Shown: one piece after another, positions 18-48,200 of the stretch
Layout: every line of letters begins with the position of its first letter
How positions within the stretch are numbered: the stretch's first letter is position 1
Assembly (NCBI RefSeq): GCF_964355755.1
Contig: NC_092679.1
Coordinates: forward strand, 17,722,932-17,786,931
Origin: Antedon mediterranea
Taxonomy: Eukaryota; Echinodermata; Crinoidea; Comatulida; Antedonidae
DNA length: 64,000 bases
Reading direction: 5' to 3'
Program-made: the position numbers and the translations under genes
The notes under the pieces: model-generated
Databases searched by the model: none
The model's input: the letters and a program-made list of their open reading frames with translations, nothing else
Told to the model about the DNA's origin: nothing

Positions 18-3000
18 GTACGTACAGTACTGTTCCGCTATTATGAGTATGACTATTTTTTTCAATCTAAATTCTGGTCAGGCCTTTTTCTTTACACATG
101 TTGTAATAATAAAGATAGTAATGTATGCCAGATTTGTAACATTTTTTACTGTATTTGTTTATTATTATATTTATTCAATGACAGTATAATACTTAATACT
201 AAATAGAACCCTTTTAAGGGGACACCTTTGGGGCCTACAGTTACAAAGGTGTCCCCTGAATAGTGGTTGGCTGTTACAGTGTTAAAATGTACATTTGCGC
301 TTGTTTGATTTTTAAGACAATAATTGGGATGTCCCTATGTGTTCCAAAGAAAATGTTCTACTGTACTGCTATTGTATACTGGCCCAGTTTGTTTGTTTGT
401 TTTTATTGATTTTCCACACAAAATGAATATTATAATTAAGTAACAATAAACATACAAGAAAGATGTGTGGCTGGTGGGAAAATAAGTTCAAAGAACTTAA
501 AGGCTTACCCACCAGAAAAGATACAATAAACATTATCAAGTATGACGAGTAATTAATACATAGTAAGAATATAAAATAAGAAGTAAAAATACATAGTAAA
601 ATAAAAAATTTAAAAAGGTAGATAAATAAGAAAAACAGTAGTATAAGTCATTAAAATGTAATAGTAATCCCACTACCAATATGGAATAATTTGCATGTAA
701 AATGATATGAAGTAAACACATTACATTTTAAGCTTTTATTGGAAACCCAGTGCACTGTATTAAAAAGATAAAAATCACTGTCTGCTTATTGAAGGCTTTG
801 CTTTGTCCTGGTTTTCTCCTTTGTGTACAACAGAACAAAGCTTTACAGTGTGAACCAGAATAACAGGTTGTTGTACCTTGGACCTGCTTCTCCCCCCATT
901 TGATTGAACTGAAATTTAATTTAACATTATATTTAACCTTCTTTTGTTGCTGTATGCTATTATAGTTAGGTAGTATAGTAACAGTTGCTTCTCTTCTATA
1001 TTAGTTCAGCATAGTATTCCTATTTACACTAGCTATGTGTGAACCCATGGTACTTTGTGCTGTGTTTCAGACTAACGTACTTAAAGTAATATAGTTTGTG
1101 ACAGTCTGAGTAAACACAGTTACTTATTTTACATATCAATACGATTGAGTGAAAGCTGTACTGTACAACACAGTACAGTTAGTAGGCTACATACATTCTT
1201 CTCAAAGGTTTTATATGTGGTTATGGACAAAAGAGTGGGAAACCACCTGGTGGTACAGTATACATACAGTACAGGTACATTGTTTTGAAATATAGATACA
1301 CTTTTATAATCCAATAAATTTAATTTTCACTCATGTATAAATTTACGTAAGGGCACAATTCCGTAAATCGTGAGTTCTAGAATATTTACTCGATGGTATA
1401 TAAATTTGTTTCGTACAGTACTTTTGGTACTGATTTTAACCACCTGATGTAACCCTGTTTACTAATTAAATTGAGTTAGATAATTAGTTATTGACAATTG
1501 AAACGAATTTAGGTTCAACAATTTGCCCCAAATGGGATGTTTTCTGATCGTGGTATACACCGTCTAATAGATGTTGTCCATCTTGAAAAATACCCGCACA
1601 ATAATATGAGGATGCTTCGCATTTACCTATCTCCTTCTACAATAATTGTTTTTAATAGCTGAAGACCGGTTGAACAGCTCAAGTACAGCATCATAATGTT
1701 GAAAACCGCCGATTTTCTTTAAAAAAATACTATTTTGATAGATTTAATATACATTTATTTTTACAAATGTATTGATTTGCAATGAATGGAACATTCCAAT
1801 CTGTCAGTTTCTCCCAGTTTAACACAAGTAGGTAAATTTATTGGCCCTTAGGGATAAACTTACGTAAAACCTTTACTGTAGATACAGTATTGCAATTTAT
1901 TTTGACAATACTGTAAATACGTATTAACAATTTTTGGTCGCCATTTGAATGGCAAATTTCTTACTGTGAGTGTGGGTACTGACACTGTTATATATATAAA
2001 CACATACAGATAAACTTTATTACTGACAGTTGCTTCTCAACGTTGGTATTAATAATTACAAAAAAATATAGACGTTGTAGTTGGTGTATCGTTACAAGTT
2101 CCTGTACTTTACTATTTCAATAGACTATGTGACAGTTTTAACAAGGTATTAAATTATGTTTTATTGTATATTATGTGGTTTATTATTTATAGGCATATAA
2201 AACATGAAAACATATTTCGTTACTGAGTAGATAAGAATATATTAAAAAATGTTTCCTCTTTGTACCCATCCTCTTCCTCATCCCTCAACCCTAATTTTAT
2301 ACAAAACACAAATTGGGTAGTTTAAATGAATCTCATTTTGTGACAAATTTCTGATGTTGATCTGTTGATGATTTACAGTAAACTGTGATGATTTGAAAGT
2401 GTAAGAGTATTCTGTCAAATTACAGTACCATCTAATGTCAGTGTCCCTAACCTCTCACTATTATGACTTATTTAACAGAACGTCATTATTACCATGGTTT
2501 ATTTTTAGTACATTCATCTTAATCTGAGGAACACCAATCCCAAAAATAGTTTAAAAGTATATAATCGACTCTCCCAATACCGGACTCTCTGAAAACCGGA
2601 AACTCTCCCAATATCCGAATTCATTTTTACCTTTAAAAACACATTTTAAACACCAGACTTCATGGAAAACCAGACATATTTTGCCAGCCCAGGTGTCTGG
2701 TGTGAGAGAGTTGACTCTGTCAAAAGTACTATCACTGTACAGTACTATAGTTTATACATTTTTGACAACACACTATTAATAATGTACAGTATTCACACCA
2801 GCAGCGTTCATACTTATGCGATCGTTCATATTTACAGCAGCCATTGTTTCTTATGCACATGACTTATCAACAACTGTTAATGACTTCTGAGTCATAAATT
2901 AAGTGCTCATCATAACAAGTGATGATCTCAAATGTTTCATTTGTTATTAGTATAAGAATTGAACTGAAGAAGACTTTTATTTAGCACATTTTTAAAAGTG

Positions 3001-6000
3001 TACAGTATATTGGGTTTGGAATTATTATTTATGTTTAAATGTAGATGTACATTGTTCCCCCAAAATCATGAAAAATAAAGATTTATAAAGTCAGACTAGG
3101 TCATTTTTAATGAAATTATTCACTTCCATAAGAAAAAAAGATAAAAAAAACACAATAATTTCACTTACACTACAGTATAGAAAAGACAAAATTAAAAATT
3201 AAATTTAACCAAAAAGAGAATTTAAAATTTTTTTCTTTAAATTACAGTTTTCTCTGGTAAATATTTTTTTTTTCGATCCAATTTTTGGTCAAATTGAAAA
3301 ATTATTATGTGATATTAAAATAGCATATTCAGTGCAGTTGCATGTACTGTACAACAATTATACAAATAACAATTAAAAAGTCAAGGATATTAATTAATTT
3401 TATAGAATAATTAAATTTTATGAAATTGACTATACGGTATTGTAGAATACAAAAAAATATATAATTTAATTTGTAGAATGCATTTTAATAAGTTCAGGTT
3501 TAATTGGTACTGTCCTTGTAAAGAAATAGCCTATTCTAGGCCGATGTCAGTCTATCCCGTTATTTATTACAAACTGCTATGTTTACATTTCCATATCTAT
3601 TCATGTAAAATGCAGTCAATCTTACAGTTTATAATTATGCCATGTTCAAAATGTCATATAACGTTAAATCAAGCTTCGCAGAAAATCATCCAGCCATTGT
3701 TTTATCGGCCAAACATTATTTGGGACACACAGTCACAATGGCCTCCTTGCTAACAATAGGGACTTTACGAAACATGACGGTTAGAGGAGGACGAAGAATA
3801 TCCTGTGTTCGTTAGAGCGTGAAATCATACAGTCAACATAGCCTTATTTATTAGTTACGCACCGTTGCACGAAGACGACGACCGGCAGTCTCTCCCATGT
3901 CTCGTGGTGCGGGGCCCTTCTGAATCGCTTGACTCTGGTGATAAATCATAAGCCTAGCCTTCCTAGCTAGGGCCTCGCATTCAAACACCGCTTTTAACAC
4001 AGCCATTTTAACCCAATAAACATTTTATTTCATTAAACAATTAAATTAGAAGTTCAAATATTATTTATTGTTTTGAAAATTCCATGTTTAAGTGTAATTT
4101 GAACTGTATATTTAAGGTTATATAATATAAATTATTTCTAGTTGTAAACAAGAAAATGGCAACTTTATCGTTCTCAAAAAGTTAAGATGACGGAATTTCA
4201 CTCTAAGCTCCGCCCACTTTGTTAAAGGTCATGCATAAATTATTCATGAACACTGTCCTGTGGTTTCCCGTCATGTTTCGTAAAGTCCCTAATAACTTAA
4301 AAGAAGCGTGATAACCCACTGATGCTCCTAAGAATCAAGGAGAGAGCTGTAGACATTGGCAAAGAAACAAAATAAAGTATTTTATTAATAAATTTAGACC
4401 TTTAGAACATGCAAGCTGATCATGACAAAAAAAAAAGTTATTATTTTAAATCTGTGGAACAGCTTGCATGGGTTTAGTTAAATTAAGGACTTACACAGTA
4501 CCCTTTTACAAATTACAGTAAATATTTAGAATAGAAAGTTTTAACAAATTCATGGTAACTGTCTGTATTCTAAAGAATACAATGTACAGTTGTGCAATAG
4601 TAGAATGATTTTATAGAATTGTAAATGGCCAGACTGAATAACAAAGCAGGGTCAATCTCAGGTTTTCTATTCTAAAGCTTGGTTCCCACTAGAACGTAAC
4701 GCAAGGACGTAAACGCAACGCAAGCGTTTTAACCAATGACAAGCGAAGTTATAGACAGTTAGCAATCACAAGCGAATAAGTCATCGCTTGTGATTGGTCA
4801 ATTCACTTGCGTTGCGTTACGTCCCTGCGTTGCGTCGCTAGTGGGAATCACGCTTTAGTAAAGCAGCTAACAATGTTGAGTTTAAAATGTCATATAGTTA
4901 CACTATGGCTGGCTTCCTGTCATCAGATGGTGCTGCATGACATAAGCTGCTAGATTAACAAGATGAATTCTAATCAGCATCGTTCATTTAATCAATGAAT
5001 ACTACTCACGGACAATACGAATATTATAAATAATAAACCAATGTTGCAACGCATACAATTTAAAATGTCTTTTAATCTAAATATTTACAGTACTCGCGGA
5101 CAGTACAAGGAGAACCTCAACACAAACAATCATAATCAAACTGACGTATGTTGCATACTATTTTTAAAGTCTTCAATTCATTCTAAATATTTAGAATAGA
5201 ATACCACTGTACCCAGTCAATAATTAGATGATAGATGTAAGGAATGACAACAATGTTTACATGGGCTGTTTATTTATATTCAATTTATTTTTAGATAATG
5301 TAATTATTATATAAAAAATTGCTGCAAAAATAATTGTTGGTTTTTAAAATATTGGATTACTATTCAATCTTAATATTTAGAATACTACTGTATTCTACCC
5401 AGTCTTGAATAATTAGATGATAGATATAAGGAATTGAAAACCATTACATTGGCTGTTTATTTATATTCAATTTATTTTTAGATAATGTAATTACTACTAT
5501 ACTAAAAAATAATATTAAAATAAGGTTTTAATACTGTTCTACGACACTCACACTAAAGTAATTTCCGTAATATTTTCGGAGGAACCATTCTCCGTCCTCA
5601 ACGGATGTTGGCTGACTGACGACTGATTGACTCCCTACTATTACGGAAATTACTTTAGTGTGAGTGTCGTAGTACAGTATTAAAACCTTATTTTAATGTT
5701 TTTGACCGATATAAATCTCTTCACTCTCGTTTAAAAAATAATAATTGTTTGTTTTTAAAATATTGGATTACTATACAATATAGCTATAGTATAATATGGT
5801 TTAATGTTTAGTGTCAGCAAATGAACGAATAAGAGATTCATACTACTAACTATACAGTTATCCCTTTCACATTGCCAGCAAAACTTTGTTTGTTATTTAA
5901 CACAACGCATTAACACAGGCGTTTAGTATACTGTAGTGTGTACGCCAGTTTTGATAGCTGATATGAAAGGGGTATACAAGTAGTTTAATTTCACTAAAAA

Positions 6001-12000: not shown

Positions 12001-15000
12001 CATAAATATATTCACCTAAAATGTTTTTCTGTATTCACACTCCGGACAATGATCAAAGTATATATTGATTGATATATTGATTAAAAAGTCAAGAATTTTT
12101 CAGAACTATATGTGGTGTAAAATAAAATGTTTGTGTTGTGCCTCCTTCATAAATTAAATGACCCACTTGTTTCATGTTTGTCATAGAGATATACTCTATG
12201 TTTTTCATGAATAAATCCAATCCAAATAGGCAAATCTATCTACTAAATTTAAGAGTCAGCTGTGTTCATAGAAAAAATACGTGTTTGTCTGATTTGCAAT
12301 TAGAGTTCGAATTCCGCGTAATGTTGAATTAAATTTATCAACGGTTCATTTTAAGCATTCTTTTCCTTCATATATTAAATTTGATTTTCATTACATCTTT
12401 TCCTTCATATATTAAATTGTATTTTTATTATGAATATAAACTTGGAGTAATTCGTTCTATTTATTATTTTCAAGTTCATTGAGAAGGTCAAGCCCTTTGT
12501 TTACATTGCTTATACAGTACAAGTTCATAAATTAGCTTTGTTCACATTCTTGATGGCTTTCTCATCAAGGGCATTGTTTTCTACTCAAGTCTAAAAATAT
12601 CCTGGAATGTTTACTGATTATTTTAAATAATAATGATAATATACTAGATTTGAACTTATCACCAAGATGAGTTCTACCCCATTTCTGCAAAATATAACAA
12701 CTTGTTGTAACCAGGTTTGCATTTTGTGAATACAATTTTGTTTTTTCCGGGAGAAAAACACACCGATTTCTCATAGTTCACGTATATGTATGTTCATGTA
12801 TGAAAACGTGTAATAAATTGGGAGATCAAACCATTTTTATGCAGATGTGAAAATGGTAAATATTAGGTTTTGTGGGAAATGTAAATGTACTTTGTAATAC
12901 ATGTGCAGAATCGTGTATATATATACTAAATTTATGAGTAGATGTATGCGTCGGGGAAGATTGGTATAGTGTTAAATCTGTTAACAGCATAGGTGACATA
13001 AGAAGATTAGACCCACTTAAGTTTTTATATTAATCATTTTAAAAAAGGCAAAGTATAATATAGATAGAAAAAATATTGAAAATGAAGATAAAGATTTTCA
13101 ATATTTATGTTCATAGTGCCAAAGATTGTCATTCTTTTATTATAGTTTTAATGTTGTTTGTTTATTTTATTTTATTTTTTTTCTTAATGTTCATTTTATT
13201 GTTATGCTTCCTATGTTTAAAGGCTTTTTTAAAATAATTTTTAAATTGATTAGAGTATTGTAAATTCGATTACTAAATATTGTTTTCACTATTTTTTTAA
13301 AGGATTTATTGCGATCTGAGTTACCAAACGCAATTGAGAAAGCCCTGCAGGGAGATGAAAGGTTGGTAGTTCAATTATATCAGAAAATATCAACTTGAAA
13401 CAATATGTTTTAAATGATATAATGTTTCTTTATCTAAGACTTAGGGTATCATATACAGAGAAGTTGACTTGAAAAATATAACCTCTGTCGGGGTTTTATT
13501 GTTCATTGTTTTTAGGACAGTGTTTAATATTACATGGATTAGTAACAAACCTGTGTTGTCTTTTGTCATTTAAGTAAATTTTAATGTCCCAATAATTAAA
13601 AAGGTTTTTTGTTTTTGAATTTGTTTTTAAAAGATTGGATTTGTAGCTTGGTGGTTAGGAAGCTTGGCTAATGATCCTACAGTAGGGTAGTAAGCTCAAA
13701 TCTTGTCAGATGTCGGAATTATTTCTTATTTCAAAAAACAACTCTCAAAGATTATTATTATTAATTATTATTGTGTAGAGTATTTAACCACCTATTCCTC
13801 ATAGGAGAATACGATATAACTCTCCTTTGGAACACCCCTATTAAGGGGACACATGTGACAATATATGGCCAACCCCTTTTCAGGGACACCTCTAAAGGCA
13901 CAATTTGTTGTGTCCCCTTAATAGGGGTTCTAATAATGATAAACAGTAATGTGTCTCTGTTTAGTTGTGTCTTGGATACAATGTGGATTTGCTAATAATG
14001 TTTCTATTTGAAGGGAATCTTTGTTGGGTCCTTAAGGTGTCCCCTTAATAGAGGTTTTACAGTACTAAATACGTTGTAATGTATCTCTGATTAGATGTGT
14101 CTTGGATACAATGCACCTCATTGATTTGCTAATGGTGTTTCTATTTGAAGGGGCATTTTTTTAGATCCTGAATGTGTCCCATTAATAGAGGTTTTACAGT
14201 ACTAATAAATTGTAATGTATCTCTGATTAGGTGTGTTTTGGATACAATGTGGATTTGCTAATAATGTTTCTATTTGAAGGGAATCTTTGTTGGGTCCTTA
14301 AGGTGTCCCCTTAATAGAAGTTTTACTGTATTAATAAACTGTAATGTATCTCTGATTAGGTGTGTTTTGGATACAATGCGTCTTGTGGATTTGCTAATGG
14401 TGTTGCTGTTCGAAGGACGTAAAGCACTGCCTAAAACCAGTATCACTATCGGAGGGTCTACCCGCATGTCGGGATTAAGAAGACTTGATAGTTCAGGTGA
14501 ACGCTCTCATCGTCAACTTATTGAATGTATACGAAGTAAAGATACGGATGCCTTGATTGATGCTGTTGATACTGGAGGTAGGAAATATTAATTTAAATAC
14601 TAGTTAAGCTCTGTCTACACTATCAAACTAGTGTGATGTGACCAAATATGGTAAATGACATCATCGTGTCCATATATTGGCACATCACATATTTCTGTCA
14701 CATATAATTTGATAGTATAGACTGAGCTTTAAATTAATTTCTTCTATACCATTCGTAAGTCTCACTTTGTAGAAAGCTTTTTTTTTTTTATTTCATAAAA
14801 TCTTAGTTTTTATTTAAGTGTTTATTTTCAAATGCAATATCTGGAGAGAACAAATAATTGTGATGCTTGTTTTTATTCCATTCCATCATTTATGTACAAA
14901 TACAATGTTTGTAAATTCAATTGAAAAAATAATTTCTTTGAATGTTGATCAGTTTATGTTCTACAATACAAAGTCTCAGCAATACCCTTCATTGAGACAT

Positions 15001-21000: not shown

Positions 21001-24000
21001 ATTTGAAGTTGAACAAATGATTTTTGTTTCTTGAATGAAATGTTTAAGTCAGCGCTGAGTAAGAGCCAGATGATTTTTTGACTTAGTTTGTTTAATAACT
21101 CAGCCCCCATCACAGCAATGTAAATAATATATTATAATAATAATATTTATTTGGTCACCAATGAAAAATAACTGAGAGTGAGAACAGATTCTGCACGCAC
21201 TCCATACAATACAGTTAAAATAGAACCTAGAAAATGTAATACTGTTACAATATATTGTAATTGTAATGCAAATAAAACTATACATAACATGTAAATATAA
21301 TGTATATAATTATAATTACATCTTTTTATACCTTTTGTTATTATTACGAGTATTTTTAATTACAAATTTTGTGGGTTTTTTTCAGGTTAAATACCTAGCC
21401 AATGAACTATATGATGGTTACTTCAAAGCAGCAGAAGCCCATCCAAGAGGAGTTGTAGCTAAGCTAAAGGAAATTGTAGCCCAACTGAAATCAGCGTGTA
21501 CATCACATAATGACCTTACTAAGGTAAGTGCATAGTTTCAAATATGTATGTAGCGTATATAGAGTGAGTATAATCCCAGGGGCCAGCTTATAAACGTTGA
21601 TGAAAATAACTGGGTGGAATTATACTTTTCTAGTCTTGTATGAATTTAGCCCAAGTCAGAGGGTGGGATTATATTCGAGTATGAGATTATATATTCTAGT
21701 TGTGTTAGGTACTGCTATATAAATAAACACATATTCCCTTACTATTATTCTCTATACTGAATGACCTCTTCAGCCAAAGACTGTTCTCCCAGAGGGCCAA
21801 GTTATGATTAGTGGCTGTGTGTTTACTAGTACGCCGGAGTAACACCCTACTCATCTCGAAAGATGTACTAGGTTTTTTAAAGTACACAAGAGCCAGATGT
21901 GAACGTATGGTTCGAACCCTTGACGATGTTATGGCTACGTAATACGGTTCCACTGTCTTAACCGCTCAGCCACTCTGATAACCATAAATTTTCTCATGTC
22001 TTGCCAATTATATAAACATTTTTTTTTCTTACCCTAGCCCTCAGAAGGTGAAAACAGTTGGCGTGAAGAAATGAAAACTGCACTGGAATCACTTACTTTA
22101 CTACTTAAAGAAGAAGGCACTCTGTCTGCGTATGAAATACATACAAGTGGGCTGGTACAGGCATTGGTCTTTGCACTTAACAATGTAAGTTAATTTACTG
22201 AAACTAATAATGATTATCATTTAGTGTAACATTATACAAATAATTTATTGAAAATATAATTGGTCAGACGTAATTTGTACTTAATGCTAAGTACATTGAG
22301 AATACTTCACAAGTAGTTCCTCGAACCCACAACCTCCAGATCACTAGCCAGGTAGGCATACCTCTAGACCACCGAGCTTGCGATGTTGGCTAGGGGTGAG
22401 ATTCGAGCTTAAGAAATCAGGTGGTAAGGCACCAACATGACTGTAATTGTTTGTAAAGCTTTGTTCCCACTAGAACGTAACGCAAGGACGTAAATGCAAC
22501 GAAAGCGTTTTAACCAATGACAAGCGAAGTTATAGACAGTTAGCAATCACAAGCGAATAAGCCATCGCTTGTGATTGGTCAATTCACTTGTGTTGCGTTA
22601 CGTCGTTGCGTCGCTAGTGGGAACCACGCTTAACTACTGTGGTGTAGCTTTGTAGTTAGAAATAATTATAAAACTTTTCTACTAATCTTTTTCTGCAGAA
22701 TTACGATGATGTTCTACTACACGATGGTCACCTTAAAGAAAGAGTTAACTTATTTAAAGCAGCCTTCAGGGAAACAAGTGATGATGAAAGGTAAGTTTTT
22801 TAATTCACTGAAAACACTACTGGTCATATATTCCTGGTAATTTAATAGGCTTGAAAATCATGTTAAAGGATACAGTATCTATTCACTTAATTATATTTTT
22901 TTCTGCAGCATCTCTCCAGCGGTTATGTTGGTACGCAAATTTATTTCTGTGTTGGAATCTATAGAACGGCTTCCTCTCTACCTATATGATTCACCAGGGT
23001 CTAGTTACGGTTTACAGGTATGTTAACAACATTAAATGGTAGAAGTTTAAAATTAGCAAAGTGACATCTAAAACCCCTTTTAAGAGGACATCATCAAGAC
23101 CCTGCAAAGGCTAATTTGATGAGTGTCCACTGAATAGTATTTGACTGTAGTGTTGAAACATATATTTCTCCTCATCCTCTTAATAGAGCTGTCCCCTGAA
23201 TAGATGTATATGTAAGGAGAGGTTCCACTGTGTGTACTGTATATTACTGTATGTACTGTATATTACTGTATGTACTGTATATTACTGTATGTACTGTATA
23301 TTACTGTATGTACTGTATATTACTGTATATTACTGTATGTACTGTATATTACTGTATATTACTGCATATTACTGTATATACTGTATATTACTGTATATAA
23401 TGTATATTACTGTAGGTACTGTATGTACTGTATATTACTGTGTGTACTGTATATTACTGTATGTACTGTATATTACTGTATGTACTGTATATTACTGTAT
23501 ATTACTGTGTGTACTGTATATTACTGTATATTACTGTATGTACTGTATATTACTGTGTGTACTGTATATTACTGTATGTACTGTATATTTAAACAACAAG
23601 CCTATAATATGTAAAATATCTTTGAGTTAGTATTACATTACATTGAGTTGCTTAATTTGTTTTTCTCTCTTTTTAGGTTCTTACTAGGCGATTACGCTTC
23701 CGTCTTGAGAAGGCTCCGGGTGAGACGTCGCTAATTGACAGAAGTGGGCGTACTCTAAAGATGGAACCCTTATCTACAATTAGTAGTTTAGAAAGATATC
23801 TTTTGAAAATGGTAAGTGTAATACATTTGTTATTTTTAGATAGATTTAAAGGCATAGAGCAACTTGATATCTTGGAAATTAATTAATTTATAAACGTTGA
23901 AGATTAGGAAATTTGTGAGAATGAGAATAAACTGCCTCAACTAAGATTCGAACCCTGAAAACAGATATTCTACCATATTTATTATTGTAGCGTTTTAATA

Positions 24001-26804
24001 ATAAATTCCCCCTAGATATAAAAAAAAAAACTAATATTAAATATACTTCTTCAGAAAACTAAAACACAATTAATATCAAAAAGTGATAAAATACTGTAAA
24101 CATTGTATCAACATGCTTGGTAAATTGTAGATTATGGCAGTCAATGAATTCTACTACAAATAGATATGTGTAATATTATTCGAAGCTGGACGTTTAATCG
24201 AAATAAATATGGTATCTTTATGTATTATCAAACATTCCCACACTATTAGTGCTTCTGTTCAATGTAATAAATGCCTTATTTATTCAACAGGTTGCAAAAC
24301 AATGGTATGACTATGAAAGACCAAGCTTCATGTTTGTAAAGAAACTAAAAGAAAACACGCCTATTACATTTAGACACACCCATGACTTTGATGATAATGG
24401 CATCATACACTGGATTGGTACAAATGCTAAGTGAGTATGGAATTCTTAATACATATTCATACATTTCAAGCTATGTCTACACTATCAAACTAGTTTGACA
24501 AAAAAAGTGTGATGTGCCCAAATATAGTAGTGGTATGACATCATCATGTCCATATATAGGCACATCGCATATTTTTAGTCGTGTGGAAACGACTCTATAG
24601 TTCACTATGTCGGTTGGTCGGTCTGTCTGTCTGTCTGTCGGTCCGGTATCACTATGCGTTTTATCGCTTTCTGACCTTATCTTGATATCAGTTTAATCTA
24701 GCTAGGTCAATTTTTCACAGTATATTCCTTATGGCCAGGAATCAATGTGGTTATGTTTTCACGGTGCGCAATAAAAAATTACGCGGTCTACGCACGATTT
24801 AACGAAATCACGTTTGTAATCATATCTTCACAACCATGAATCACAATTAAAGAAAATTTGGTACTCATAAATTTCAGGGCATAAATCATCATATGGCAAT
24901 ACAATTACGTGCGTAGCGCATGTAACGCATGCGTACGCGCGCTTAAAATTTTCAAAATTTATTTTCGATGAAATAAGAGTACGTTTCAGGCAATTTTAAG
25001 CGTTTACAAAATTGCCATGAGTGCGCATATTTTTGCGCGCACACTGCGCGTTGAATGTTATTGCACACTCTTTTTGCCCGATTTCTGTTTTCTTGACTTA
25101 CTTTTCAACTCGAAATTACGTTATACGAGCACGTCAAAAGTGACAGGCTACGCACGTGTAAATTAAAAATATATAAATGTTTTTAAACATTTCCACATTT
25201 TTAAACATGTTCAGTAATTTCGGTCAGTATAGTTCACTATGTCGGTCGGTCTGTCGGTCTGTCTGTCGGTCCGGTATCACTATGCATTGTAGCATGCGAC
25301 TTAATGGCTGTTGGCCTTGTTTTCACATAAAGTTTGATAGTGTAGAGCTTCAGAATGAATTATGGAGTATAGCACCTAAACAGTAGCTACGTTGTTAATG
25401 AATTATGGAGTATAGCACCTAAACAGTAGCTACGTTGTTAATGAATTATGGAGTATAGCACCTAAACAGTAGCTACGTTGTTAATGAATTATGGAGTATA
25501 GCACCTAAACAGTACCTACGTTGTTAATGAATTATGGAGTATAGCACCTAAACAGTAGCTACGTTGTTAATGAATTATGGAGTATAGCACCTAAACAGTA
25601 GCTACGTTGTTAATGAATTATGGAGTATAGCACCTAAACAGTAGCTACGTTGGTACATCATTGTTTCTCAATTTCTGTAATTGTAATTAAATTGCTGACT
25701 TTGCAACAACAATTATTGACAACAATAACATGATTTTTTGTGCCAAAACAGCCCAGCTAAGTTTTATGTGTGCAAACAATTATCTAACATTTTATTGAAA
25801 TCAGTAACACTTGGTCACACTAAAGCGTGGTTCCCACTAGCGACGCAACGCAAGGACGTAACGCAACGCAAGTGAATTGACCAATCACAAGCGATGGCTT
25901 ATTCGCTTGTGATTGCTAACTGTCTATAACTTCGCTTTTCATTGGTTAAAACGCTTGCGTTGCATTTACGTCCTTGCGTTACGTTCTAGTGGGAACCAAG
26001 CTTTAGTGATCAGGCATTTGAATATCATTGTGCATGTGCACAGGCTGCTGTGTAGTTTAAATATATCAATTTTGTAATCTAATCTCTAAAATGTATTACA
26101 GAACTGCATATGAATGGATAAACCCAGGCCAGTACGGTTTAGTTGTTGTCAGTAGCTCAGAGGGTAGAACACTGCCATATGGACGGTTAGAAGATATACT
26201 TAGCCGGGATGCATCAGCTCTCAACTGCCATACTAATGACGATAAGTAAGTAATTATATATAAATACCAAACTAAAACATCTGTAAAGTATATTTAATAA
26301 TTTCGTTTAGTTTTAGTTTTTTATCATCATATTAATTTTATCTTCACCACAGGCGAGCATGGTTTGCAATAGATTTAGGATTGTGGGTAATCCCATCAGC
26401 ATACACATTACGACATGCTAGAGGCTATGGACGATCAGCTCTTAGAAACTGGTTACTTCAAGTGTCTAAAGACGGTCATAACTGGACAACCCTACTGACC
26501 CATACAGATGATTCTTCACTCAGTGAACCAGGGTTAGTTTAAAAAATTGTTAATGAATTATTTGCTTAGTTAGAGAAACATTTGTGTGGATGGAGGTCAA
26601 ATAAGTTCAAGAACTTTAAGGCTGACTCCCATTTCAAACATTATACATACAGTATAATTATAAATATGTGATAAAAAAGATAAATAAAGAAATAGAAAAA
26701 AACATGAATTAAAAAAATAATAAATAAATAAACAGAGTAGTATTCGGATATATGTGATATAAAGCAAATATGCATATGGAAATATGCAAAATAATGGCAC
26801 AGAT

Positions 26805-39058: not shown

Positions 39059-39899
39059 TAGTACAGTACTGTAAAGGCCCTACTGTATGTACAGTACTGC
39101 AAAGGCCTCCACTGTATGTACAGTACTGTAAAGGCCCCACTGTATGTACAGTACTGCAAAGGGGCTCTTCTATACTGTATGTACAGTACTGTAAAGGGGC
39201 TCTTCTATACTGTATGTACAGTACTGCAAAAGGCTCCATTCTACTGTATGTACAGTACTGCAAAGGACTTTACTGTATGTACAGTACTGCAAAGGGGCTC
39301 TTCTATACTGTATGTACAGTACTGCAAAGGGGCTCTTCTATACTGTATGTACAGTACTGCAAAAGGCTCCATTCTACTGTATGTACAGTACTGTAAAGGC
39401 CCCACTGTATGTACAGTACTGCAAAGGGGCTCTTCTATACTGTATGTACAGTACTGTAAAGGGGCTCTTCTATACTGTATGTACAGTACTGCAAAAGGCT
39501 CCATTCTACTGTATGTACAGTACTGCAAAAGGCTCCATTCTACTGTATGTACAGTACCGCAAAGGACTTTACTGTATGTACAGTACTGCAAAGGACTTTA
39601 CTGTATGTACAGTACTGCAAAGGACTTTACTGTATGTACAGTACTGCAAAGGACTTTACTGTATGTACAGTACTGCAAAGGACTTTACTGTATGTACAGT
39701 ACTGCAAAGGACTTTACTGTATGTACTGTACTGCAAAGGGCTCCACTGTACTGCAAAGCGCTCTACTGTATGTACAGTACTGCAAAGGGCTCCACTGTAT
39801 GTACTGTACTGCAAAGGGCTCCACTGTATGTACAATACTGCATGTACAGTGACTGCTAAGGGCTCCACTGTACTGTATATACAGTATTGCAAGGTATTC
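39059..39899. repeat. Hairpin minisatellite (CTGTATGTACAGTACTGCAA) array
   Basis: Roughly two dozen units of 27 bp (…AAAGGACTT spacer) or about 37 bp (…GGGGCTCTTCTATA or AGGCTCCATTCTA spacers). Each unit contains TACTGTATGTACAGTA, a perfect 7-bp inverted repeat around TG. Spacer types alternate in a higher-order pattern on the left half and become homogeneous 27-mers at 39555-39725. Long open frames on both strands (up to 247 codons) follow from the period and repeat one peptide; I treat them as artefacts. Confidence 0.9.
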
Positions 39900-45272: not shown

Positions 45273-48200
45273 GTAAGATATCAATTTCTCCTATACATAT
45301 TAGGGAGCTTTCGTTCGATTTTCCCAACTTGCCTCCATACACACAATAAATTGACATGGCCTAGGTAAGTCTTCAAAATCTCCCTATAATTAATATTTAA
45401 TTATAACAAATAAACTGTAGGATGCTGGGTTAGCTAAAATTGATAATTATTAAAAATTATGTGTATTGGGGTTTAATATTGTTTAATAATTATGTTAACA
45501 AATCTGGAGACGTGACTGACAGCTACTGGATATAAACCTACAAATCCTATATCATACAAAGCACCGAAAATTAACTGATTCTAGAATAGTGAACACTAAA
45601 AGGTATTCCCTAATGAATAGCAATAGGAAAACATAAAATTGTCAGTAACAGGTGGACTGGGGAAAAAAATCTCCACCAGTAGCAATCCTACAACAGATGT
45701 TGCTACAATCATCCCTTGTTGACTGTAATTGAAGGCTAATATTAACTCACTACGAATAGTAAATTTAATTATTAAATTTCTATTTATATGCTCATTTGTT
45801 TTGAAAATCAGGTTCTTGTTTCATTTATAGTTTTAAATTTAGTACTAACTTTTGTTACCAAACAATTCAATACAGACATTTTTGTGAAAGGGTTTTTTTT
45901 TTAAACGGTTACACAGTATTTGTTTGATTTGTTGTACTGTAATTTAATTTGCCCAAGGAGATAATTTGAAAATATGTGTTTCTGGCTTCTTTTTTTTTTT
46001 AATGCCAACTGCTAAATCTGCCTCTGTACACTACACTATACAGATTAAATACTTAATACTGTATGAGACTTGATTATAAATAAGAAAATCGCTATAAAAT
46101 ATTATTATCAATAAAGCCTTATGAATACAGTACATAAAAAACTCAAAATTCAATTTAGTTTTTTGAATAATTATAATAATAATCAGCAAAAACCTTGGCC
46201 AATGTATAAAAGATTTTTAGAAACCCAATAAGCCGTAAACAAGTCTGACTTCGCAGAATATAGCCCAGATTTAAACTTATTATTCTAATGTTACATTAAA
46301 ATACAATACTAGTGTTAGTTGTTATGACAATTAAAAACCATTGCACAAATTCTCACACAGACTGATTATATACAGTTTTTTAATAAATTATATAGAGCGT
46401 AACATTGAACAGTTGAAATGAAAACCACAACAAATTGAAATGTAAATGTTGTGTTTTTTTCTACAGTAAAGTGATGCGTCTAAATCACTGTCTAAAGCTC
46501 TGTATATACATTATCAAACTAGAAATGACAAAAAAAAAGTGTGATGCACCCAAATATGGTATTATTATTATATATCATTATGTCCATATATTGGCACATC
46601 ACATAGTACTGTAGGCCATCCTGGATATACTTTACTGTAGTAGTATATGATGAGACATAACCTCTCACTATTGGGGAGTACAGTAGTAGGCACTTCATTC
46701 CAATGAACGAATGAATTTTTAGATATAGGGATTCAGTAGAATGATTTAAAATTGGAGTAAACAATATCAATTGTATACTGTAATTGTCACGATAGCCAAA
46801 CTAAATGATCAAGCCTTATCCATCCATGTGGGTTTTGAGGTTCCCCTTTTCCTGTCTATGCCCGACTGGCCTACTGTAGCTGTTTTCACCATTTGTAAGA
46901 AAAAAACGAACCCATTAATTAAATCAATTTCATTGGTCTATTTTTTTAAAACAAGAAATACAGTCCATTTGTTTTTCCCGGAAAAAAAACACCTGGTATT
47001 ACAGTAGCTAAGATTCCTAATGATCGTTGACCAAAAAGAATTTTTGTCAATGATTTTAATGAAAAGGAAAAATTTTGAAGCAAAAATATCTTTCATTGAC
47101 AGGAAGTAAATTTGCGTTACAATTATACTTGTTAATGTGATTCTTCCTGAAGGCAGTGTTTACACATCCTGTCCTGAGTAAACAACAAGTAACCATGAAT
47201 GCTTGCTAGATCAACTGAAATCCACTTTTTGTAGTTCGACAAATTTAATACCACTATTTTCTAATGTAAATTAGATTAGGATTCACAAGCTAATCTAACT
47301 ATAATAACTGATAATCTACAGTACAGAAAGAAATTACTGCTTCGTATCTACGCGTAGGCTTTCGTAGGTAGATCGTAGGTAGAACGTAGGTCATTGTTCT
47401 CTCCTACGATGTATTGTTTGTAGCCTACGATGTATTGTTTGTAGCCTACGATGTATTGTTCTCTCCTACGATGTATTGTTCGTAGCCTACGATGTATTGT
47501 TCTCTCCTACCTACGATGTATTGTTCGTAGCCTACGATGTATTGTTATGAAATCTAGGCTACGCCTCGATCGTAGGGTGGTTCGTAGAAGCATGGAAAAT
47601 GCAAACAAACAATGTATTGTTTGCTAATTAAAATCCTACCTAAAGATAGTAGGTCAATTTTTGTAGCCGCCCTACATCGTAGGTAATTGTTCTCTCCTAC
47701 GATGTATTGTTTGTAGCCTACGATGTATTGTTTGTTATCCTAATTTGGACGGAAATCCGCCGACGAAACGACATCGGGCCGGTGGAAATCAGCTCACGTA
47801 GAGAGAGTCGAGGCTAGGTTAGGCCTAGCTAGCCTGTTTCGGCGGCCTACACTATAAATTATTTATTCCTACCTTGTTGGGTTAGCGAATTATAAAAACA
47901 ACGACAACTAGGCTAGGACACCAACAAAATATATGCAAAATAAATATATATTCCATATTAAGATTTAACATAAATAAATAGGCCTTTTAAAATGATTACG
48001 ACATGTATAAAGAAAAAGGCCCGACCAGAATTTGGAGGGGAAAAAACATGTGAGCTGAGCAGTTTAAAGAGAGTATTATGTTTCATGTCATGTGACACAA
48101 AATCCAGGTACACGATCTTAATTACTGTTTTATTGTCGTCAGACGGTAGCCACCCTAAAAAAAAAACATGTGAGAGATTGCGGTAAGCAGAGAGTATCGC

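Follow-up and report, generated by a model that had tools for sequence, protein, structure and literature searches.

Partial copies of exon 6 with splice acceptors and MITE-like sequence in a tandem array of the Antedon mediterranea HECTD1 gene

A stretch of 64,000 nucleotides from Antedon mediterranea (contig NC_092679.1, positions 17,722,932 to 17,786,931, forward strand), hereafter called the window and numbered from its first letter, was analyzed. The window is AT-rich and lies on a 25-Mb contig; the genome searched comprised 354 Mb in 18 contigs. A HECT domain was found in two ORFs of the window's gene, and typed joins of window exons gave matches to MIB_HERC2 (3.5e-21) and Sad1_UNC (2.9e-18), both above the cut-off. 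The ankyrin match of the typed joins was weak (best 5.1e-5, under the Ank_2 cut-off and barely over that of Ank_4). A PDB search returned TRIP12 as the match for the HECT part and no convincing match for exon 6. Ankyrin, Sad1/UNC, MIB_HERC2 and HECT in one gene correspond to the domain order of HECTD1, and by this order together with the domain content the host gene was identified as HECTD1.

The features around intron 5 (13362-14359, approximately 1 kb) are listed below. A slash within a motif marks a boundary.

13303-13361, + strand: HECTD1 exon 5, 59 nt, with the donor AAG/GTTGGT at 13361, which fits the frame
13828-13932, + strand: degraded MITE-like element of intron 5 that shares its right end with unit 1; the left limit is uncertain
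13910-14378, + strand: tandem array with a period of about 129, from TRF and shuffles
13910-14036, + strand: unit 1, with MITE right end, intron end, acceptor 13964, exon copy and MITE interior, from the alignment
14037-14173, + strand: unit 2, with acceptor 14094 and exon copy 14095-14139, ambiguous on to 14151, without deletion, stop at codon 24
14174-14302, + strand: unit 3, with acceptor 14230 and exon copy 14231-14268, ambiguous on to 14280, with the 7-nt deletion of unit 1
14303-14359, + strand: head of unit 4, with MITE right end and the acceptor region of the real exon 6
14360-14577, + strand: real HECTD1 exon 6, 218 nt, frame open from acceptor to donor, joined in frame with exons 5 and 7

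TRF reported the array with a period of 129, 3.6 copies, 82% match and a score of 640, and no array of period ≥50 occurred in 100 dinucleotide shuffles of 13500-14700. When the 22 hand-marked exons were compared with the window by BLASTN, extra matches were obtained for exon 6 only, at 14096-14151 (84%), 14231-14280 (79%) and 13966-14014 (77%), all within the first 57 nt of the exon. The genome search with exon 6, in which one candidate place was scored, returned this locus only; besides the real exon it listed copies 2 and 3, whereas copy 1 was absent from the matches. The first-pass annotation had proposed three partial copies of exon 6, each behind an acceptor, in front of the real exon; this was confirmed by TRF, BLASTN and alignment. 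Its four acceptors (13964, 14094, 14230 and 14359, at spacings of 130, 136 and 129) were likewise recovered, and aligning the units bore out the 7-nt deletion and the spacer common to copies 1 and 3.

The unit had further been described as exon start plus flanking intron. The exon part held (45 nt secure, up to 57), but the plain-intron part did not, nearly half being MITE. Specifically, each unit runs from the MITE right end through an acceptor-bearing intron piece of approximately 30 nt and 45-57 nt of exon 6 into MITE interior. In copies 1 and 3 the exon part is reduced to 38-50 nt by the 7 missing nucleotides; in unit 1 it is secure over 13965-14002 and ambiguous on to 14014. Behind acceptor 14230, unit 3 has the GTGTGT with which the real exon begins. 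The copies span at most positions 1-57 of the 218 in exon 6, so the array is not a whole-exon duplication with acceptor and donor.

The MITE-like element at about 13828-13932, the older copy, has fully complementary arms of 20 nt (13834-13853 and 13909-13928) and aligns with 14 dispersed copies; it is short, dispersed and has inverted termini, as expected of a MITE. A genome search with 13951-14590, in which 40 of 230 candidate places were scored, gave at least 49 matches besides its own locus. Those listed all fell at query positions 52-135 or 318-401 (window 14002-14085 and 14268-14351), which are linker plus right end of the dispersed element, and none fell in exon sequence. The 21-nt right-end word of the MITE has 134 exact copies in the genome, compared to 0 for the reversed control. 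Judged by eye, the MITE copies finish with ...TACTG/TA, which suggests a TA target, and the element is presumably pogo/Tigger-like.

Exon origin is secure for 45 nt only, up to 14404 in the real exon, and the next 12 nt are ambiguous with the MITE. Three of these last 12 letters are common to the copies but different from the exon, and two of the three were judged by eye to fit the MITE copies. A reading of the 12 letters as simply MITE was softened, as exon and MITE are too alike there to tell. By eye, the exon-MITE joint lies within two imperfectly alike stretches, CTGTTCGAAGG in the exon and CTATTAAAGG in the MITE. The exon/MITE junction of the array resembles dispersed MITE copies such as those at loci L007, L009 and L016.

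Identity among the units is a mosaic. Copies 1 and 3 have an identical tract of 81 nt (13972-14052, + strand, and 14238-14318), whereas 12 of 74 sites differ between the heads of units 1 and 3 (MITE end, intron and first 19 exon nt). The remainder of these units (exon middle, tail and linker) differs at 0 of 53 sites (Fisher p 0.0013 against the heads, with a boundary picked after the alignment was seen). Five of 76 sites differ between heads 2 and 3 as well as between heads 3 and 4, and eight of 76 between heads 2 and 4. Over exon and head, units 2 and 4 differ at 16/114 sites; linkers 1 and 2 differ at 9/22. The head of decoy 3 (we refer to the three upstream acceptors as decoys 1 to 3) is the most similar to the real one, with 0/19 differences in the exon start. 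A single duplication of a dimer of approximately 265 bp, as had been suggested, is contradicted by the 81-nt identity of copies 1 and 3 beside 12/74 differences upstream and by the 16/114 differences of copies 2 and 4, and this simple history was rejected. The identity tract next to a diverged head points to conversion or (repeated) unequal exchange as the likely source of the copy 1/3 mosaic.

Splice sites were scored with a matrix built from sites marked by hand in this gene (21 acceptors and 17 donors; a few unclear boundaries were omitted). The acceptors at 13964, 14094, 14230 and 14359 scored 2.74, 0.56, 2.50 and 2.50, respectively. The four similar acceptors of the first-pass annotation are real, decoys 1 and 3 matching the real site in score. 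The real exon 6 acceptor ranks third from the bottom among the 21, whose leave-one-out scores span 1.4-14.1, and its score is reached by 9.7% of 2,095 other AGs. Besides the decoys, six AGs in intron 5 outscore it (13924, 13515, 13633, 13438, 13897 and 14164). The exon 6 donor at 14577 scores 9.3. Given the weak real acceptor, the acceptor alone cannot select exon 6; probably the exon body and donor 14577 do.

Donors at the exon/MITE linkers are poor (0.2, -3.9 and 0.2, vs 3.1-12.1 for the 17 marked donors). AAT/GTGGAT at 13982 and 14248 scores 3.4. TAG/GTGTGT, which overlaps acceptor 3 at 14230 and acceptor 4 at 14359, reaches 7.6, and the notion that the copies are without any donor was dropped on account of it. 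With such donors, decoy exons could in principle span 14095-14230 (136 nt) or 14231-14359 (129 nt).

A stop would be met at codon 11 after splicing to decoy 1 or decoy 3, and at codon 24 after splicing to decoy 2. The open frame earlier ascribed to copy 2 is thus weakly founded: it stops at codon 24, and its end FLFEG lies in possible MITE sequence. In its favor stands a slight third-position bias, as 5/7 differences from the real exon, counted by eye, are at third positions (p 0.045); the bias could also come from silent changes of the real exon itself. Given the stop, there is no need to regard copy 2 as a coding exon or an alternative one, and this reading was rejected.

To place the array in context, 20 random 4-kb stretches, one of them all N, were screened. 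Eight arrays (period ≥50, score ≥150) were found in 76,000 readable bases; they occurred in 6/20 stretches and covered 8% of bases, mostly from stretch L027. Positions 1138-4000 of this random control are mostly a satellite of approximately 311 bp (106 + 205) with 96% match. Tandem units of this MITE end plus flank also occur at loci L003, L004, L006 and L007, which were chosen for multiple matches and show recurrence, not frequency; in the genome search the flanks of L006 and L007 matched their own loci only. As tandem arrays are common here and arrays of MITE end plus flank recur, the HECTD1 array is ordinary in kind. Clustering was seen at 5/67 loci of this MITE vs 3/64 of another MITE (p 0.72; first 100 places of 134 and of 8,038, with the 64 loci counted strand-wise and six two-ended elements counted twice). 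The MITE as a special driver of tandem duplication was rejected on these counts.

Further repeats were observed in the window. Just past exon 6, another inverted-repeat element occupies 14606-14729 in intron 6; its 24-nt end, AAGCTCTGTCTACACTATCAAACT, has 8,038 exact copies in the genome, and it also occurs in arrays (42- and 92-bp steps, C1). A 43-bp tandem repeat at 25354-25652 (7 copies) is recent, to judge from its 99% match. Positions 39081-39892 hold a complex nested array of TACTGTATGTACAGTACTGCAAAGG-like units with periods of 49 to 132, and a 41/62-bp tandem repeat of CCTACGATGTATTGTT units lies at 47393-47546. At 23187-23630, two overlapping frames are open across a short-unit tandem repeat and are not gene-like.

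Tandem exon duplication can give rise to mutually exclusive exons. The HECTD1 copies share with these the tandem exon sequence with acceptors, but they end after 45-57 of 218 nt, carry stops and are without the donor of the exon. A literature search on duplicated splice acceptors found no like case, which is not proof of absence. In the available parts of two reviews, MITEs are described as giving rise to tandem arrays, and the routes proposed include short matches and unequal exchange (PMC9659126, PMC12628747). A MITE part in a tandem array is common to those cases and to ours; the arrays in these parts of the reviews consist of the element's own sequence, whereas the HECTD1 unit adds single-copy host DNA (acceptor and exon start). 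The HECTD1 array adds to the MITE-array cases one whose unit includes the edge of a host exon. As to recursive splicing, the portion available of one study describes annotated RS-exons as frequent in deuterostomes (PMC6224609). Like the RS-exons in the available parts of PMC6224609 and PMC8605326, exon 6 has a partial donor at its start, and a strong donor is recreated at the exon-exon junction (9.36 on our 17-site matrix, which is not the MaxEnt threshold of the paper). With this score for AAG/GTGTGT, exon 6 looks like a putative RS-exon, array or no array. Compared to those RS-exons, the HECTD1 decoy sits in a short intron, its only good donor is the overlapping one, and it is known by motif alone.

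What was observed is the tandem array with its MITE part, the identity mosaic, the splice scores and the stops; from these we infer a joining route, low use of the decoys and neutrality; a neutral tandem duplication of MITE part, intron end and exon start, with decoys mostly unused, is the probable explanation. A MITE-like element would have come to lie in intron 5 with its right end approximately 30 nt before the exon 6 acceptor. Local tandem duplication may then have joined a point in exon 6 (around CTGTTCGAAGG) to a point in the MITE (around CTATTAAAGGG), the two matching imperfectly, which would yield a repeat unit of MITE right part, intron end, acceptor and 45-57 nt of exon 6. The array would have expanded to four heads and been partially homogenized via conversion or unequal exchange, leaving the whole exon with its good donor attached to the last head only. 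Since the acceptor itself is weak, exon 6 would be chosen mainly by its body and donor 14577; most likely, the decoys are neutral and see little use. Counting against neutrality, decoys 1 and 3 (2.74 and 2.50) are not separable from the real acceptor (2.50) by score, decoy-exon donors reach 3.4 and 7.6, and copy 2 shows the third-position bias.

The same scores bear on the idea that the copies are regulatory poison exons, with splicing to a decoy causing an early stop and decay and so tuning the HECTD1 level. Every decoy route does meet an early stop, acceptors 1 and 3 are on a par with the real one in score, and acceptors 3 and 4 are each followed by a donor-like GTGTGT. Yet any decayed copy is expected to contain stops, the copy/MITE linkers offer poor donors, and tandem arrays are a common feature of this genome. 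Such scores also carry little weight here, given that six other intron 5 AGs outscore the real acceptor; we consider poison exons unlikely. Still less likely is that decoy 3 acts as an intronic ratchet site, corrected by a second splice to 14359 because exon 6 starts with the partial donor GTGTGT. The exon 5-6 junction (13361/14359) scores above 12/17 leave-one-out donors and is the top of 8 junctions, and AG/GTGTGT is kept at decoy 3 and not at decoys 1 and 2. Against this, the head of decoy 3 is merely the closest to the real head, an intron of approximately 1 kb needs no stepwise removal, and GT-initial exons are common (7/21 marked acceptors). An assembly or polymorphism artefact, with one unit in most individuals, would be in line with the identical tract of copies 1 and 3 and with the single assembly; it is very improbable, as the units differ by substitutions and indels, unlike the misassembly of one sequence, and the array takes up less than 500 bp within a 25-Mb contig. 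Copy number polymorphism of the array is possible.

It would be quite surprising, from the motifs, if duplication of an RS-exon start had produced a chain of dual acceptor/donor sites (AG/GTGTGT at 14230 and 14359) that makes the array a splice-fidelity buffer or a kinetic delay for HECTD1. If so, a wrong splice to decoy 3 would be self-erasing, with the recreated donor re-splicing to 14359 to give the right mRNA. Decoys 1 and 2, having lost the GT, would give stops; self-erasure would be confined to decoy 3 because only this decoy keeps the motif.

The locus is a clear natural example of a working splice acceptor that a tandem repeat has multiplied several times ahead of a conserved exon. Should RNA data reveal that, of these near-identical acceptors, precisely the last is used, the locus would offer a test of how far exon body and donor, as opposed to the acceptor, determine splice choice; otherwise, the array would represent ordinary repeat turnover.
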